Shown one piece after another: positions 37,546 to 46,558 of a stretch of 46,558 bases of DNA (within the stretch, counting starts at the first letter, position 1; the number at the start of each line of letters is the position of its first letter). This DNA is from Sandaracinaceae bacterium (GTDB lineage Bacteria > Myxococcota_A > Polyangia > Polyangiales > Sandaracinaceae). The stretch covers positions 1-46,558 of the forward strand of contig JAVJQK010000004.1 of assembly GCA_040218145.1 (NCBI GenBank), written 5' to 3'. Made by a program: the position numbers and the translations under genes. The notes beneath the pieces were generated by a model that was given only the letters and a program-made list of their open reading frames with translations, made no database searches and was not told the origin of the DNA.

Positions 37546-40500
37546 CTACTCCTCGGCGTCGGCGAACACGGGCGTCCCGGTCGGGGTCGGCGCCTCGTCC
37601 TTCGCGCCGCCGAAGATCCGGCTCGCGAAGCCGCCCAGCGCGTCCATCAGCGTGTAGACGACCGGCACCACGATCAGGGTCAGCATCGTCGACGTGGTCA
37701 AACCGCCAATGACCGCGAGGCCCATCGCGCGCCGCACCTCACCACCGTCGCCATGGCCGATCGCCACGGGGAGCATGCCGAAGATCATCGCGAGCGTGGT
37801 CATCAGGATCGGACGGAGACGCGTGGCGCCCGCCTCGACGAGCGCGTCGAAGCGGCTGAGGCCCTCCGCACGCTGCTGGTTGGCGTAGTCGACGAGCAGG
37901 ATCGCGTTCTTGGTGACCAGGCCCATCAACATGATGAAGCCGATCATCGCGAAGATGCTCATCGCCTCCCCGGTGGCGAGGAGCAGACCGAACGCGCCGA
38001 CGAGCGAGAGCGGGAGCGAGACCATGATGGTCAGCGGGTGGATCAGGCTCTCGAACTGCGACGCGAGGATCACGTAGATCATGACGATCGCGAGGAAGAG
38101 CGCGAGGAGCATGTTCTCCACCGTCTCCTGGAGCATCTCCGCGTCGCCGCCCACGTCGGTCGCGATGTGCGCGGGCACCACCTCGGCCGCGACCTCCTCG
38201 ACCGTGTTCATCGCGTCGCCCAGCGCGAGGTCCTCGAGCTGCGCGGTCACGGTGATCTGGCGCTGACGGGCCTCGCGGTCGATCTGGCTCGGCCCCGCCG
38301 ACTCGGTCACGTCGGCCACGCTCCCGATGTCGACGAGCGCGCCCGTCGTGCTCCGCACCTGCGCGGCACGGATGGCGTCCATGTCGGCGCGGCGCTCCGG
38401 CGGGAGCTGCACGCGCACGTCGTAGCGGTCGCCGTCGACGTCGAGCTCGGTCGCCACCTGCCCCTCGACCAGCGAGCGCACCGTCGTGCCCACGGTCGCG
38501 CCCATCACGCCGACGTCGTCCGCGCGGCGCCGGTCGAGCGCGACGGTGATCTCCGGCCGGCCCGAGCGGTACGAGATGTCGACGTCCGCGAAGCCCGGCG
38601 TCTCGCGCAGGCGGTCGGCCATCGCGTTCGCCGCCGCGGCCAGCTCATCGAGGTCGTCGCCCCGCAAGTTGTACTGCACCGGCGCCGTCTCGCCGCCGCC
38701 CTGCACCATCTGCAGCTGCTCGACGCCGATGACGCGGTCGCCGCGGCCCGCGAGGGCCTCGCGGATGAACGCCATGATCTCGGTCTGGTGATACGCGCGG
38801 TCGTCGCGGTCGATCATCGTGACGATGATCGCGCCGATGTTCACCCGGTCCTGCACGCCGCCGCCCACCGTGGTGAAGGTGCTCTCCACCCCGGGGATCT
38901 CGCCCACCTGCTCGGCGACCGCGAGCAGCTCGCCCTCGGCCTCGTCGAGGCTCGTGCCCACGGGCAGCTCGACGGAGACCTGGAACTGTCCCTGGTCCTC
39001 CGGAGGGATGAACGTGAAGCCGATGGCGGGGGCGAGCGCGAACGCGCCGACCAGCGCCGCGACCGCCACGCTCAGCGTGACGAAGCGGTGGTTGAGCGCC
39101 CAGCGCACCACGCCGCGGTAGCGCTCGTCGAGCCAGGTCAGGGCGCGCTCGATCACGCCGCCGATGCCGGTGGTGGAGGGGCCCGCGTGGCCGCCGTCCT
39201 TCAGCATCTTCGACGCGAGCATGGGCGTCATCGAGAGCGAGATGAACGTGCTGAGCGCGATGGCGAAGGCGACGGTGAGGCCGAACTCGAAGAAGAACTG
39301 CCCGACCATGCCGTCCATGAACGCCACGGGCACGAAGACCGCGCAGGTCGCGGCGCTGGTGGCGAGGACCGCGAGGCCCAGCTCGCTCGTCCCCTCGAGC
39401 GCGGCCTTCACCTTGCCCTTCCCGAGCTGGCCGCGGTGCCGGACGATGTTCTCGATGACGACGATCGCGTCGTCGATCAGGATGCCGATCGACAAGCTCA
39501 ACGCCAGCGTCGTCATCAGGTTGAGCGTGAAGCCCATCGCCGAGACGAAGCCGAGCGTGCCGATGACCGTCGTCGGCAGCGTGAGCGCCGCGATGAACGT
39601 CGCGCGCGCGTCCCGGAGGAACAGGAAGATGATCGCGACGCAGAGGAACGCGCCCAGCACGAGATCGAGCTGCACCGTCTCGATCGACGCCTCGATGTTG
39701 GTGGAGTTGTCGAGCAAGACCTCCACCTGCGTGCCCTCGGGCGCGCGCTCGCTCAGCGCCGGGATCGCCTCGCGCACGCGGGCCGCCACGTCGACCGTGT
39801 TGGCGCCGGACTGCTTGCGCACGATCAGCGCGATGGCGCTCCGCCCGTCGACGTAGGCCGCGCTGCGCCGCGTCTCGAGACCGTCCTCGATCCGCGCCAC
39901 GTCCTCCAGGCGGACCACGCGGCCCCCGGCGCCGGTCAGCGGCAGCCGCCCCAGCGCTTCGAGGTCCTCCGCCTCGGCCGTCGTGCGGATGGTCAGCTCG
40001 CGCGAGCCGTCGTCGAGCCGGCCGCCCGGGACCTCGAGGTTCTGCGCGCCGATCGCCTGCGAGACGTCCGCGACGGTGAGCCCGTACGCGCGGAGCCGCT
40101 CGGGCTCGACGTAGACGTGCATCTCCCGCTCGCGTGAACCGACCAGCTCGAGCTGCCCGACGCCGGAGATCCGCTCGAGGCCGGGCTCGAGCACGTCCTC
40201 GGCGAACGCGCTGAGCTCCCGCTCGCCCGCGTCACCGCTGATCGCGATCTGCATGATCGGCGCGGCGCCGAGATCGAGCTTCTCGACGAGGGGCTGCTCG
40301 ACGCCGTCCGGGAGCTGGTCCTGGATCGACGCGACGCGGTCGCGCACGTCCTGTGTGGCCGTGTCGAGGTCGACGTCGAGGTCGAACTGGATGGCGACCT
40401 GCGAGACGCTCTCGAGGTTGGTCGAGCGCAGCATGCGGATGCCGCCCAGGCTGTTGACCGCCTCCTCGATGGGCTCGGCGACGCGCGTCTCCATCGTCTC

Positions 40501-40668
40501 CGGGTCGGCGCCCGGGTAGACGACCGTGACCGTGACGACCGGGAAGGTGACCTCGGGGAAGAGGTCGACGGGCAGCCGCGCGTAGAGCACCGCGCCGAAG
40601 ACCGCCACCGCGACCATGATCATGGCCGCGAAGACGGGGCGCTTGACGCTGACTTCGGTGATCTTCAT
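37546..40668 (-). CDS. RND efflux transporter, inner-membrane pump (HAE-1/AcrB-like)
   Basis: The 1040-residue pump is a full-length hydrophobe/amphiphile efflux member of the RND superfamily, driven by protons. It starts [21 protein letters not shown], as usual, and shows the porter-domain segment [25 protein letters not shown]. The proton-relay aspartates D399 and D400 lie in [17 protein letters not shown], and the second membrane half contains [26 protein letters not shown]. It forms a tripartite system with the fusion protein and outer-membrane channel encoded just upstream in the same operon. The start is ATG 40668, 10 nt after the fusion-protein stop; the longer frame to 40767 is Arg/Pro-rich and overlaps that gene. 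Candidate substrates are drugs or lipophilic toxins. Confidence 0.96.
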
Positions 40669-40678
40669 GGCGTGTCTC

Positions 40679-41821
40679 TCAGGTGGGGTCGGCCGAGGTC
40701 TCGTCCTCGAGCGCTGCGCCCTCGCTGGACGCCGCCGCCGTCTGGGTGGTGACCGGGGCGCCGTCACGGAGCCGCGCCGGGAGGGGGCTGATCACCGCCT
40801 CGTTCGCCTCGAGCCCTTCGAGGACTTCGACCGTCCCCGCGCCGAGAGGATGCACGCGGACCTGTCGCTCGACCGCGCGCCCGTCGCGGTGCACGAAGAC
40901 GCGGCGGCTGTCGCCCATGCCGCGCGTGGCGTCGGCTGGCAGCACCATCGCCGTGCGCACGCCGCCCGCGCGGATGGCGACCTCGGCGCTCATGCCCCCG
41001 CGGATCACCCCCTCGCGGTTGTCGACGTGCACCACGATCTCGACCGTGCGGGTCTGCGTGTCGATCTCCGGCGCGATGCGCGAGACCGTTCCCGAGAAGC
41101 TGCGATCCAGCGCGGGGAAGCGAACCTCCGCCGCCGCGCCCTCGCTCACCCGCGCGAGCTCGCGCTCCGGGATGCGCGCCGCGATCTCGACCGCGGAGAG
41201 ATCGACGACCCGCGCGATGATGCTCGGCGGCATGTTCGTCGCCGTCTCGCCGACCTCCATCGTCACGCGCGAGACGATGCCCGCGAAGGGCGCGCGGACC
41301 GTCGTGTGGCTCACCGCCGTGCGCGCCTGCGAGGCGCCCGAGCGCGCGGCCGAGAGCTGCGCGCGCGCCCCCTCGAGCTGCAGCTCCATCTGGTCGACCT
41401 GCTGGCTCGGGATGGTGCCGCGCTGCGCCAGGGGGCGGAGCCGGGCGAGCTCCTGCTCGAGCTGCCGGACCTGCGCGTCGATCCCCTGCGCGCTCGAGGC
41501 GGCCTGCGCCGCGCCGGCCCGCATGCTGCGTCCGTCGAGGCGCGCGATGATCGCGCCCTCCTCGACCGTGTCTCCCTCGCTCACGGGAAGATCGACGATC
41601 TGGCCCGTGACCTGCGGCCCGAGATCAGCCGCGCGGATGGGCTCGGCCGTCCCGACCGAGCGCACGGTCGGCTCCACCTCGCGCGCCTCGGGCGTGCGGG
41701 TGGCGACCGAGACGGGCTCGGCGTCGGCCGCGCTCTCCTGCGCCGAGGCGGGCAGCTCCACGCCGCCCTCGGATCCACAGCCGACCATGACCAGCGGGAT
41801 CAAAATCGCGAACCGTCGCAT
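40679..41821 (-). CDS. RND periplasmic membrane fusion lipoprotein
   Basis: The 380-residue adaptor has a lipoprotein signal ([15 protein letters not shown], cysteine 15). It has the standard MFP layout: a barrel-sandwich/lipoyl half ([31 protein letters not shown]), a helical hairpin (about residues 105-165, heptad-like [20 protein letters not shown]), the second lipoyl half ([20 protein letters not shown]), and a beta-barrel plus membrane-proximal region ([14 protein letters not shown]-like, [20 protein letters not shown]). It links the RND pump to the TolC-like channel. The start ATG 41821 shares its A with the TGA of the upstream channel gene (ATGA), indicating co-translation. The long frame to 42202 is a shadow of the channel gene. 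Confidence 0.94.
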
Positions 41822-43287
41822 CACTCGCCCTCCGCGGCGCGAGGCGCCGCCTCTCCGACCACGCGCGCCACCTGCGCGCCGGCCACATGTAGATCCACGT
41901 ACGCGTTCACCAGTTCGAGCTGCGCGCGCGTCAAGTCCAGCTGCGCCGTCGTGACCTCGGTCGTCGTGGCCACGCCCGCGCGCAGCATCTCCCGTCGGTC
42001 GTCCAGCGACAGCTGGGCCGCGGCCACCGCCTCGCGGCTCGCGTTGATCTGCTCCCGCGCCGCCTCGTGCGCCGCCACCGCCTGGGCCGCCTCGATGGCG
42101 ATGCCGTCGTGCAGCTGCTCGAGGTCCTCGCGCACCTGACCCAGCTCCGCCTCGGCCTCGGCCACCTGGTGGTACCCGATGGCCGCGTCGTTCGGCGACC
42201 ACGCCACCGACGCGCCGAGCGCCCAGGTCGTGTAGAAGTCGGTCGTCTGGGGGATGACGCGCTGGTTGGGGCTCGAGGTCTCGATGTTGCCGACCAGCGA
42301 CACCCTCGGGAGCATCGTCCCAGTGCGCGCTTGCACCACCGACTGACGCGCGTCGACCAGGGTGCGCAGCGCCGCGACCTCCGCCCGCTGCTCGAGCGCG
42401 CGGTCGACCAGCGTGCGCTCCGAGGGAGAGCCGTCGACCTCGGCCGAGAACAGGTCTTCACCGATCCGGATCGGCACGTCGGCGGGCAGGTGCAGCAACC
42501 GGCGCAGCACGCGCTCGGTCACCCGGACCTGGCCGCGCGCCTGCACCGTCATCGCGCGCGCCGAGGCCAGGCGCGCCCGTACCTGAGCCGCGTCCGCCCG
42601 CGCGGCCACGCCCGCCGCCTGGAGGCTCTCGACGTCTCCGAGCGTCGCCTCGAGCGAGGTCACCGATTGCCCCGCGATCCAGAGCCCGGCCTGCGCGCGC
42701 ACGTGGTTGTAGAACGCCTCGCGCGCCCGGAACGCGACCGACTGCCGCTCCGCCTCGACCTGGTGCTCGGTGGCGTCGACGAAGCCGAGCGCGCCCTCGT
42801 AGGACGGCCACACGATGAAGAAGTAGTCCGTGACGGGGATCTGCACCGAGCCTCGCACCGCGTACATGTCGAGGATCTGCGGGAAGGGGTTGTCGCTCGG
42901 CGGCAGCCCCGGGATCTCGAAGGGCGGCAGATCCACCTCGTTGATGCGCGTGTAGGACGCGCTGAAGTCGAAGCGGGGGACGAACCGGCTGACCGCCTGG
43001 TCCACCTGCGCGCGCGCCGCCCGGTGCGCCCAGCGAGAGCGGCGGACCGACGGCGCGGTGTCCACCGCCAGCTGCGCCGCGCGATCGGCGGTCATGCCCC
43101 CGGGCGTGGCCGCGAGGAACTCCGGCATCGGCGCCTCGGACTCGGCCACGGCGGCCATCGACGCCGTCTGGACGGGGCTCGGGACGGCCTGTGTCTCGGG
43201 CGCGTCCTGCGCGGACGCGGCGAGGCTCCAGGACAGCACGAGCAGGCCGCAGGCCACGGCGCGCGGATCGATTCGTTGCAGACGCAT
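41821..43287 (-). CDS. TolC-family outer-membrane channel
   Basis: The 488-residue protein has a signal peptide (RAVACGLLVLSWSLAASAQ) and two outer-membrane efflux repeats (about residues 65-270 and 285-475). Long Ala/Glu/Gln-rich helices (AEAELGQVREDLEQLHDGIAIEAAQAVAAHEAA) and beta-strand segments facing the membrane (FVPRFDFSASYTRI, GSVQIPVTDYFFIVW, VSLVGNIETSS) are typical of the family. It should trimerise and form the exit duct of the RND system. The start is ATG 43287. It is first in the operon, and its upstream region contains palindromes at 43324 and 43350 and a divergent marR-family gene. Confidence 0.94.
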   Translation of the reverse strand: MRLQRIDPRAVACGLLVLSWSLAASAQDAPETQAVPSPVQTASMAAVAESEAPMPEFLAATPGGMTADRAAQLAVDTAPSVRRSRWAHRAARAQVDQAVSRFVPRFDFSASYTRINEVDLPPFEIPGLPPSDNPFPQILDMYAVRGSVQIPVTDYFFIVWPSYEGALGFVDATEHQVEAERQSVAFRAREAFYNHVRAQAGLWIAGQSVTSLEATLGDVESLQAAGVAARADAAQVRARLASARAMTVQARGQVRVTERVLRRLLHLPADVPIRIGEDLFSAEVDGSPSERTLVDRALEQRAEVAALRTLVDARQSVVQARTGTMLPRVSLVGNIETSSPNQRVIPQTTDFYTTWALGASVAWSPNDAAIGYHQVAEAEAELGQVREDLEQLHDGIAIEAAQAVAAHEAAREQINASREAVAAAQLSLDDRREMLRAGVATTTEVTTAQLDLTRAQLELVNAYVDLHVAGAQVARVVGEAAPRAAEGE

Positions 43288-43323
43288 CAGCTCTCCATCG
43301 GCGACCGGGTGTTAGACCCTCGG

Positions 43324-43363
43324 TTCGACCGGCGGTCGAAACCTGAGGCCTCGGGCTCCCGAG
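43324..43363. promoter_or_regulatory. Two palindromes upstream of the efflux operon
   Basis: TTCGACCGgCGGTCGAA (43324-43340) is a perfect palindrome around one base, with 8-bp arms. CTCGGGctCCCGAG (43350-43363) has 6-bp arms. They lie 37-76 nt upstream of the channel gene start, where a repressor site is expected. They are candidate operators for the divergent MarR protein. Confidence 0.5.
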
Positions 43364-43501
43364 TCAAGCGCCGGAGGCGAGAATTCATGGGTGAGTCGGA
43401 GGTGCCTACGCAGTGAAGCCGACTGATATTTCGGCGGGACGTCATCGGAGCGTCCGAACGGCAGGGAGGAGGCAAACCTCAAGTAGTTGTGAATGCAACG
43501 A

Positions 43502-43513
43502 TTGCGCTCGCAA
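43502..43513. promoter_or_regulatory. MarR-type operator candidate
   Basis: TTGCGctCGCAA is an inverted repeat with 5-bp arms, matching the TTGN(n)CAA pattern of many MarR sites. A second, weaker half-site pair GTTGtgaatgCAAC lies at 43486-43499, centred 15 bp away. The area is locally AT-richer (CATATG at 43515-43520). It supports autoregulation and argues for the later start codons of the MarR gene. Confidence 0.45.
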
Positions 43514-43593
43514 ACATATGGCTCCATGCTCGAAGCGTGTCAAGCGACGTCGCCGCGGCCTCCGCCGCTCTGCCCCCGCCCGCCGAACCGGCC

Positions 43594-44064
43594 GTGATAC
43601 AAGACCCGACCGTGCGGGATCGGAACCTGAGGGAGATCGCCCTGCGCTTCAGCTACTTGAGGCGCGTGGTGCTGACCGAGCTGACCCAGAAGCTGGCTCC
43701 GCTGGGCGTGACGCCGCCCACCTATCACCTGCTCTTCCGGCTGAAGCACGACGGGGAGCTCCCGCAGCAAGACCTCGTCGCCGACTCCGGCCTCGACGCG
43801 GCGGGCGTCAGCCGCTTGATCGCGAAGATCGGCAAGGAGGGCCTCGTCGCGACCCGCGTTGACCCGAACGACCGCCGCCGCCGCATCGTCAAGCTCACCG
43901 ACAAGGGCCGGCGCCTCGAGGAGTCTCTCGCCCCCGTCGTGGACGCCGCCATCCGCAACGTCGTCCCGGGCCTCGAAGAGGACGAAGAGGCCCAGCTCCT
44001 GAGCTTGCTCGACAAGGCCGTCGCGGGCGCCGTCGCGCTCCAGCGCGCGCGCGAGCAAGGCTGA
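43594..44064 (+). CDS. MarR-family transcriptional regulator
   Basis: The protein (156 residues from GTG 43594) has the MarR fold: an N-terminal dimer helix (NLREIALRFSYLRRVVLTELTQKLAPLGVTPPTYHLLFRLKHDG), the winged helix-turn-helix (LPQQDLVADSGLDAAGVSRLIAKIGKEGLVATRVDPNDRRRRIVKLTDKGRRLEE), and a C-terminal dimer helix. The DxxDRRxxxLxLTxxG wing is diagnostic. The frame is open from GTG 43489, but residues from there on look non-homologous and would cover the palindrome at 43502. GTG 43612 is another option, and none has a good ribosome site. Being divergent from the tolC-MFP-RND operon, it probably represses the pump and itself, released by a pump substrate. Confidence 0.88.
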   Translation: MIQDPTVRDRNLREIALRFSYLRRVVLTELTQKLAPLGVTPPTYHLLFRLKHDGELPQQDLVADSGLDAAGVSRLIAKIGKEGLVATRVDPNDRRRRIVKLTDKGRRLEESLAPVVDAAIRNVVPGLEEDEEAQLLSLLDKAVAGAVALQRAREQG

Positions 44065-44870: not shown

Positions 44871-44951
44871 GACCGTTCGGAGAGGCTGCCCGGGACTCTC
44901 GCCTCGCGACGGGCTGCGTCGTTTTCGACGTGAGAACGACGTCGAACGGTC
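44871..44951. other. Three-way-junction-like inverted repeat set
   Basis: GACCGTTCG (44871-44879) and CGAACGGTC (44943-44951) form a perfect 9-bp outer stem. Inside are two hairpins: GAGAG/CTCTC (44880-44884 with 44896-44900) and CGTCGTT/AACGACG (44917-44923 with 44935-44941). The second hairpin loop carries the GTG start of the next gene. A direct repeat TCGCGACG also occurs at 44864-44871 and 44904-44911. No G-U pairs indicate a strand. Confidence 0.5.
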
Positions 44952-46357
44952 ACGCCCTGAGCTGGCCCGTCCAGGTCGCGCTCGTCCCGGACGGGCGAGA
45001 CGCCAGCCGGACGTTCGAGATCATCGCGACCGTCGAAGACGAGACGGGGGCCTTCGCGCGGACCCGGGTGCAAAGCGGCTTCCTTTCCGGTGAGACGCTC
45101 GCGCTCGACGTCTGGCTTCGCGACGATTGCGTCGGGCAGCTGTGCGACGAGAGCGAGAGCTGCATCGACGGGCGATGCGCGCCCCTCCGCATGGTCGAGG
45201 CCTGTTCCCTCGCGCAGCTGGATGGCGGCGTCGCGAGCTGCGCGCCCGCGGACGGTGGAGCGGGGGCGGACGCCGGCAGCGACGGTGGGGTCACCGACGT
45301 GGACGCAGGGAGCGACGCCGGACCGTCCGACGCCGGCCCCGCTGATCCGCTCGATGTGCACAACGCGATCTTCGTCACGTCGCGCACGTACGTGCTCGGC
45401 GACCTCGGGGGCATCGCGGGGGCCGACGCCATCTGCCAGACGCACGCGGGCGAAGCCGGGCTCCCGGAGGCCGACGGCTACCGCGCGCTCTTGCCGACCG
45501 CGAGCGAGTCGGCGATCGCGAGGCTCGGCGCCGCGCGCGGCTGGGTCCGCATGGACGGGCTGCCGTTCGCCGACCGGGTCGAGGACCTCGAGGCGGGCCG
45601 GGTGCTCTACCCCGTGCTCCTGACCGAGACCGGCGCGCGGGCGACGGTGCCCCCGGGGCGTGGCGTGGCGAGCGCGCTCAACGGTGACCTCACGCAGCAC
45701 CTCGGCAACTGCATGGACTGGTCGAGCCGGGAGGGCTTCCTGCACGCCTTCGGGGATCCGCGCGACGGCACGGGGCGTTGGCTCCGCACCGACGGCGGGC
45801 CCTTCGGCTGTCACGAGTCCATGCCGATCTACTGCGTCGGCACGGCGCGAAGCGAGCCGCTCACGCCTCCGGTCGCGCCAGAGGGAGCGGGGTTGGCGTT
45901 CGTGACGCGCGACACCGTCGCGCCCGGCATGGGGGTGGCCGCGTTCGACGCGCTGTGCGCCGCCGAGGCCCCCGCGGGCGGACCCACCTACCGCGCGCTC
46001 GTCGCGCCGGCGGAGGGCGTCACGGCGATGAGCCGCTTCGCCTTCGTCGGACCTTGGGCGCGCGCGGACGGCGTGCTCGTGGCGGAGGGCCCCTCGGACA
46101 TCGAGACCCAGCGCCTGCGCAGCGCCATCGCCGTCACCGCGGACGGCGCGCGATACCTCGACGCCGTGATCTGGACCGGCGCCGACGGCCCCGGGTCGAC
46201 GAGAACGCGCACTTGCATGGACTGGATGGATCCGACGCGCGACACCGGATCCGCGGGTCGCTCGGGATCGACGGTCGCGTTCTTCTTCGCCACCCCGACC
46301 AACGTCTTGTGCGGCGCCTCGAATCGCGTGCTGTGCCTCAGCGACGGCGCCCTCTGA
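44930..46357 (+). CDS. Two-domain DUF1554-like protein, apparently lacking its N-terminus
   Basis: The 475-residue frame has no signal peptide, though its content looks exported. Residues 9-85 (SWPVQVALVPDGRDASRTFEIIATV... to VWLRDDCVGQLCDESESCIDGRC) match, in my reading, the middle and end of the lead domain of myxobacterial lipoproteins, which normally begins about 60 residues earlier with a signal and lipobox. A DAG/SDG linker follows (107-140). Two copies of a DUF1554-like domain come next, about 147-305 (IFVTSRTYVLGDLGGIAGADAICQ) and 315-475 (LAFVTRDTVAPGMGVAAFDALC), each with NCMDW or TCMDWMD and paired cysteines. The frame is open upstream of GTG 44930 but has no start or signal there. 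An inverted-repeat set covers the start. It may be a decaying or mis-started gene. Confidence 0.75.
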   Translation: MRTTSNGHALSWPVQVALVPDGRDASRTFEIIATVEDETGAFARTRVQSGFLSGETLALDVWLRDDCVGQLCDESESCIDGRCAPLRMVEACSLAQLDGGVASCAPADGGAGADAGSDGGVTDVDAGSDAGPSDAGPADPLDVHNAIFVTSRTYVLGDLGGIAGADAICQTHAGEAGLPEADGYRALLPTASESAIARLGAARGWVRMDGLPFADRVEDLEAGRVLYPVLLTETGARATVPPGRGVASALNGDLTQHLGNCMDWSSREGFLHAFGDPRDGTGRWLRTDGGPFGCHESMPIYCVGTARSEPLTPPVAPEGAGLAFVTRDTVAPGMGVAAFDALCAAEAPAGGPTYRALVAPAEGVTAMSRFAFVGPWARADGVLVAEGPSDIETQRLRSAIAVTADGARYLDAVIWTGADGPGSTRTRTCMDWMDPTRDTGSAGRSGSTVAFFFATPTNVLCGASNRVLCLSDGAL

Positions 46358-46418
46358 TCCCCGAGCACGTCTCTCCTCCACCCGCCGCTCGAACGAAGAG
46401 CTCGACGAGAGAGTTGAA

Positions 46419-46555
46419 CCGCTTACCGGACCGAGCATGCCGTTTCCCGCGTTTTCTGGGCAAGGCGCGACGAGGGAGCGTGCTCTCAGCACGTGACCGA
46501 GGAAGCAACGCAGCCCAGGAATCGCGGGGGACGGCAGGCGACGGGAGGTAAGTGG
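46419..46555 (+). ncRNA. Candidate structured RNA or palindromic element, unidentified
   Basis: Four nested stems span about 137 nt. CCGCTTACC (46419-46427) pairs with GGTAAGTGG (46547-46555). GCCGTTTCCCGC (46439-46450) pairs with GCGGGGGACGGC (46524-46535). CTGGGC (46456-46461) pairs with GCCCAG (46513-46518). CGTGCT (46479-46484) pairs with AGCACG (46488-46493) around loop CTC. All three non-Watson-Crick positions are G-U on the plus strand and would be A-C on the minus strand, which favours a plus-strand RNA. A large, GA-rich internal loop (GACGAGGGAG against GACCGAGGAAG) separates the third and fourth stems and could hold tandem G-A pairs. The element may run beyond the window edge. I cannot match it to a named RNA family or mobile element. 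Confidence 0.6.
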
Positions 46556-46558
46556 ATC

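Follow-up and report, generated by a model that had tools for sequence, protein, structure and literature searches.

The structured element at the right end of the analysed stretch (the window, 46,558 nucleotides of DNA from a Sandaracinaceae bacterium) is probably a non-autonomous MITE of the IS630 (Tc1/mariner-like) type, the plus strand of which is presumably transcribed into an RNA rod that selection keeps for an RNA function. The usual view of small bacterial MITEs is that each is the debris of a single transposon, confined to its lineage; in the present class, a strictly conserved RNA-like core is combined with many different IS630 terminal repeats in many phyla. This core is an RNA-like structure nearly unchanged across those phyla and uncatalogued in Rfam, and it is far more widespread than any family tied to it.

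Within 46405-46558, the plus strand folds as RNA at -88.7 kcal/mol (z -8.4, with 0 of 200 shuffles as good) and the minus strand at -69.6 kcal/mol (z -5.5). The fold is a rod of collinear helices, the outer ones being 46419-46427/46547-46555 (9 bp), 46431-46433/46542-46544 and 46435-46436/46538-46539 and the inner ones 46438-46451/46523-46536 (14 bp) and 46453-46461/46513-46521 (9 bp), with a GA-rich core and then an apical hairpin (46478-46494) interior to the last of these. The first-pass annotation had described a stem-built rod of about 137 nt in which only three mismatches, all of them G-U on the plus strand, interrupt perfect complementarity. The rod, with its 9-bp basal stem, is confirmed, and so are the G-U pairs on the plus strand, but true internal loops exist too and the element extends about 12 nt further on each side. 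In the alignment of the window element with 14 other full or nearly full copies, its ends are AGAGTTGAACC on the left and GGATCAACTCT on the right, and a full-length copy of this family (family A) reads CTAG-AGAGTTGAACC ... GGATCAACTCT-CTAG, 163 bp including both CTAG. The boundary is CTAG in other copies and CGAG at 46406-46409 in the window copy; the contig stops at 46558 within the element, leaving its right end off the contig. A covariance model (R1) built from aligned cores, none of them from this genome, matches 46451-46524 on the plus strand with 65 bits (E 3e-18). The parts of the element and its neighbour are as follows.

46406 to 46558, plus strand: family A element, lacking its right end because the contig stops here (copy alignment and R1 match).
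46406 to 46409, no strand: left target-site position, CGAG here and CTAG in most copies (copy comparison; the F-family empty site has CTAG once).
46410 to 46427, plus strand: left terminal inverted repeat and basal stem, with its partner at 46547-46558 and past the contig end (fold).
46428 to 46437, plus strand: basal internal loop GGACCGAG, opposite GCGACGGGAG at 46537-46546 (recurs in several other families, by inspection).
46438 to 46461, plus strand: 5' side of the middle stem, pairing with 46513-46536 (fold and a compensatory change).
46462 to 46477, plus strand: 5' side of the core, AAGGCGCGACGAGGGA, with tandem G.A loops and single C-G pairs between them (core pattern, folds and alignment).
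46478 to 46494, plus strand: apical hairpin, varying in sequence among families and always paired (folds and covariation).
46495 to 46512, plus strand: 3' side of the core, GACCGAGGAAGCAACGCA (core pattern, folds and alignment).
46513 to 46558, plus strand: 3' arm of the rod, cut short where the contig stops (fold and copies).
44930 to 46357, plus strand: neighbouring open frame with a DUF1554 match, outside the element (profile match).

The upstream frame (44930-46357) had been taken for a possibly decaying gene; it is in fact open over 475 codons, and its match to DUF1554 is short. Further upstream, minus-strand frames (40767-37546, an adjoining frame ending near 40679, and 43287-41821) have by eye the look of an RND efflux pump, a periplasmic adaptor and a TolC-like outer membrane channel, and a MarR-like frame (43489-44064) adjoins these RND-like frames (window 37546-44064, likewise by eye).

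The genome to which the window belongs (11 Mb in 148 contigs) holds about 20 dispersed copies of family A with 84-100% identity, and many contigs start or stop inside such elements, which suggests that the elements break the assembly. Among family A copies, the middle stem shows a compensatory C-G to U-A change; covariation within this family alone is modest (3 pairs with double changes), as expected of young copies. The core pattern CGACGA-S-G...GAGGA-GCRAC has 78 exact matches in the genome, against 0 for the reversed pattern, and these belong to at least seven families (A to F and X). From one family to the next, neither arms nor ends are related, and what is fixed is the length (163-170 bp in the full copies measured), the boundaries (CTAG or near variants, CAAG in family X, some families lying at CAAG or CTNAG instead of CTAG) and the core. 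Family A copies often adjoin other palindromes having unrelated arms, the same centre and one CTAG in common with them (L005, L007, L011, L017 and L018), and elements thus seem to be inserted into one another's boundary sites. The partial copies of families A and E (L016-L020 and L442:477-554) all retain the 3' half (6/6), most being broken at the apex of the hairpin. The plasmid search found no family A copies on plasmids. In family B of this genome (G000), the apical loop reads TTCA or its reverse complement TGAA in similar counts while the flanking core keeps a constant orientation, from which it follows that the hairpin tip has been inverted repeatedly. One family A copy in the same-species genome G182 (L170, contig C96) joins the flanks of two different copies of the window's genome, which reflects either copies that have recombined with each other or an artefact of the assembly.

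In the core, tandem G.A pairs form an internal loop, CGACGA...GAGGAGCRAC, which is flanked by covarying stems. Folds of family representatives share one design, in which an outer stem is followed by single C-G pairs with tandem G.A/A.G two-by-two loops between them (2-3 units), then by an apical hairpin of any sequence, and then by the 3' side GAGGAGCRAC. In several families, a second loop, GGACCGAG opposite GACGGGAG, is found near the base by inspection. Relatives within the order (for example G017, G022, G042, G091, G092, G121 and G129) carry many copies of this core with different arms and apical stems, and a scan of GTDB representative genomes with the core pattern yielded at least 119 stretches. 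By record titles, the taxa among the matches listed include Acidobacteria, Gemmatimonadota, Elusimicrobia, Nitrospirae, Verrucomicrobia, Omnitrophota, Myxococcales, Burkholderiales and others. Homologous copies are therefore present in the genome itself, in Polyangiales relatives and in many phyla, and the GA-rich loop, which had been called conserved-looking from a single copy, recurs across families and phyla. Neither the Polyangiales copies nor copies from other phyla match any Rfam family at E up to 1, and no description of the core was found in the literature searched. No gene family recurs beside the core at these loci (at least 119, in many phyla), where the recurring frames overlap the element itself; the core is thus not a cis-regulator of one gene, as had been considered at first, and its copies are dispersed. 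Nor is it part of any autonomous element seen here.

Some lineages have forms of their own. Burkholderiales-type copies (L283, L286, L311, L327, L343, L357, L361 and others) share one invariant asymmetric form, CCTAGAAACCGCAGTTGGACGCG ... GCGTAGCG ... TCACCC-loop-GGTGA, in which an additional hairpin lies beyond the right arm, and are found on two plasmids. Copies from Elusimicrobia, Omnitrophota and Nitrospirota (L284, L290, L293, L304, L316, L320, L331 and L344) carry an additional conserved stretch, GCGCTTTTGGGCTGCGACTGCGTCGCTCGTCGCTTACG. In the Longimicrobiales sequence OX639991.1 (Gemmatimonadota; L298 and L314), elements are arranged in tandem with a core spacing of 171-172 bp.

Two kinds of evidence point to RNA. 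The 68 non-redundant cores, from many phyla, were aligned without difficulty, and RNAalifold gave 20 pairs, 15 of which have pair-keeping changes on both sides; true partners reach a covariation score of 0.553, whereas shuffled partners give 0.173 (0 of 500 shuffles as high) and slid partners 0.09-0.13. The refuting outcome named in the first-pass annotation, an absence of homologous copies or of compensatory changes in their stems, thus did not occur. This evidence concerns only the outer and apical stems, because the search pattern fixed the letters of the core. With the core excluded, the left arm was compared with the reverse-complemented right arm in 43 families, each represented by one element; these families were split by left-arm sequence only and may be deeply related. 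Read on the plus strand, that is, in the orientation of the core, departures from complementarity are of the G.U type in 113 cases and of the A.C type in 48 (p 3e-7), with an excess of G.U in 29 families and of A.C in 9, and the plus strand of the arms alone folds better in 39 of the 42 families that differ (p 6e-9). The first-pass annotation had taken G-U pairing as the mark of a selected RNA, an argument that is weak from three cases and holds at this scale. The arms, to judge from their sequences, behave like transcribed RNA. One strand, most simply an RNA, would be under selection, since a DNA palindrome has no reason for a strand preference. Against this, the element might be a plain DNA palindrome, a MITE with a strand bias that arose as a by-product of mutation and with a core that serves as a DNA site for, e.g., a transposase or a host factor. 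An excess of C-to-T changes on the non-template strand would give G.U pairs as well, and strand-wise mutational bias could contribute to the excess; MITEs are also known to carry DNA sites, e.g. for IHF (PMC2229807). This explanation is unlikely, however, because a linear DNA site has no need of covariation such as that in the outer and apical stems of the core. Genes flanking the elements have no orientation bias (35 versus 40 pointing in from either side), so that the orientation of read-through explains neither plus-strand transcription nor the G.U excess, and the mutational bias itself would need plus-strand transcription from inside the element.

The class is mobile, as an unoccupied CTAG site in a genome of the same species shows. 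When 14 element flanks of the window's genome (one shortened; 4161 bases) were compared with G182, an F-family copy was absent from the latter, which has a single CTAG where the filled site has CTAG on both sides; a TA target is hence duplicated at this site, 2 and 4 bp both being compatible. A B-family copy is likewise missing in G182, and several other copies are common to both genomes. In the order, the terminal repeats of IS630-family (DDE_3) transposons are near-perfect and have CTAG or CTA at their boundaries, and many IS630 copies there have TA- or CTAG-bounded repeats in the style of the elements. The left end of an IS630 transposon in G042 agrees with element L355 at 18/18 nt, with one mismatch at the other end, and terminal matches of 23/24 nt and 20/21 nt link IS630 transposons in G091 and G017 to a family E copy and to element L302, respectively. 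Terminal repeats are thus shared with IS630 over 18-24 nt in three element families, for the class as a whole; over 14 nt, random CTAG sites match at 14/14 in 0.3% and at 13 in 1.3%, in a null that retains some true ends. Because the terminal repeats of IS630 in three relatives match element ends, the class is concluded, on sequence grounds, to consist most probably of IS630-type MITEs, and the families would differ because each carries the ends of a different IS630 lineage around a constant core. Family A itself is presumably mobilised by IS630, as the other families probably are. In its own genome, no IS630 with family A terminal repeats was found, and no matching ends were recognised for the only clear DDE_3 copy there (L431); among multi-copy genomes, G092 and G135 have no DDE_3 match and G022 only a weak fragment.

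A quite different route would be that of a bacterial SINE-like retroelement, in which the core would be recognised by a reverse transcriptase that copies the RNA into CTAG sites. Conservation of the core and of a strand-specific fold with variable ends would fit such an element, as would the retention of the 3' half in all six partial copies, most of them cut at the apex, and the presence of reverse transcriptases in 10 of the 10 multi-copy genomes tested. Reverse transcriptases are also found, however, in 6 of 9 low-copy genomes, nearly all copies are precise at both ends, and the IS630 terminal-repeat matches are near base-exact in three cases; retro-copying is therefore a minority view and rather improbable. 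In REPs, a long hairpin has an internal loop that is constant and a tetranucleotide at its base, and the same traits here would suit an element of the REP or single-stranded hairpin type, with a RAYT/Y1 transposase as its mover. This identity was rejected as highly improbable, since the Y1 transposase (PF01797) is absent from five multi-copy genomes, G042, G022, G017 (81 hits), G091 and G129, which are half of those tested, and since CTAG, CAAG or CTNAG flanks the copies on both sides. An integron attC site and a group II intron, both considered, were dropped, the ends being CTAG duplications and the core being without a match; msDNA-like repeats of Nannocystis were a literature lead that was not confirmed.

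As a non-autonomous IS630 MITE with a selected RNA rod, the element would depend for its movement on a transposase produced elsewhere, which recognises the terminal repeats and integrates the element at the TA within CTAG, so that CTAG stands on either side; coexisting families would have terminal repeats from different IS630 lineages and a common centre. The plus strand would then be copied by nearby transcription or from an internal start into a long RNA rod with the tandem-G.A core. Selection would keep the fold, most likely because insertions become tolerable to host transcripts through the rod itself, or through a widespread RNA-binding or processing factor for which the core is the recognition site, by the setting of a processing or stability point. 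Selection on the fold of the transcript is the best-supported reading, and a processing or stability point set by a common factor would be its likeliest mechanism. From the initial choice among a non-coding RNA, a cis-regulatory RNA and a REP- or MITE-like palindrome, there remains a mobile palindrome of the MITE type with an RNA-like core, while cis-regulation of one particular gene and REP/RAYT are not supported. More tentatively, and with somewhat less than even confidence, the core might be a single ancient RNA module, spread over many phyla, absent from Rfam, repeatedly joined to unrelated IS630 ends and read by a widely conserved protein, with ERIC as its best-known distant branch. With the covariance model and the defined core motif, the long-standing question of why the RNA fold is retained in repeats such as ERIC becomes directly testable, and a protein or RNase that reads tandem-G.A rods can be sought concretely through the core.

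Several known repeats resemble the class in part. REP and REPIN with RAYT are also dispersed structured palindromes, but the Y1 transposase is missing from half of the multi-copy genomes here. YPAL (RU-2) of Yersinia is a mobile palindromic repeat of about 167-168 bp (PMC2759123) and is thus similar in length and palindromy, whereas the core was not seen, by eye only, in the published RU-2 sequence. IS630-family MITEs such as RUP, which has terminal repeats in common with IS630-Spn1 (PMC2229807), are likewise short, non-coding and TA-bounded with ends common to an IS630 element, and Correia/NEMIS is TA-ended too; these are lineage-specific families, in contrast to the single constant core here, which is joined to many unrelated terminal repeats in different phyla. 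The closest known kind is ERIC (IRU, with RU-1, MITEEc1 and MITEPlu5; enterobacteria and vibrios), which is an imperfect palindrome with a TA-type target (PMC2229807), and the termini of the ERIC-related MITEPlu5 resemble IS630 elements (PMC6267812). Like the class described here, these repeats are imperfect palindromes with a duplicated TA-type target, a high copy number and a stable RNA rod; ERIC differs in being shorter (about 127 bp) and in lacking the CGACGA/GAGGAGCRAC core. ERIC copies were confirmed in E. coli and on plasmids, and all six copies folded (6/6) fold better on the strand reading AAGGCG or its variant. AAGGCG lies flush inside the outer stem, as in the core here, in five of the six, opposite CAACGC in three of the six. 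When these paired blocks were tested, p lay between 0.01 and 0.08 in five copies and the sixth had no match, which is suggestive only, and R1 scores at most 8 bits on ERIC (E 0.42); straightforward homology to ERIC is thus suggested at most. The class works like ERIC, and the two may be distant kin.
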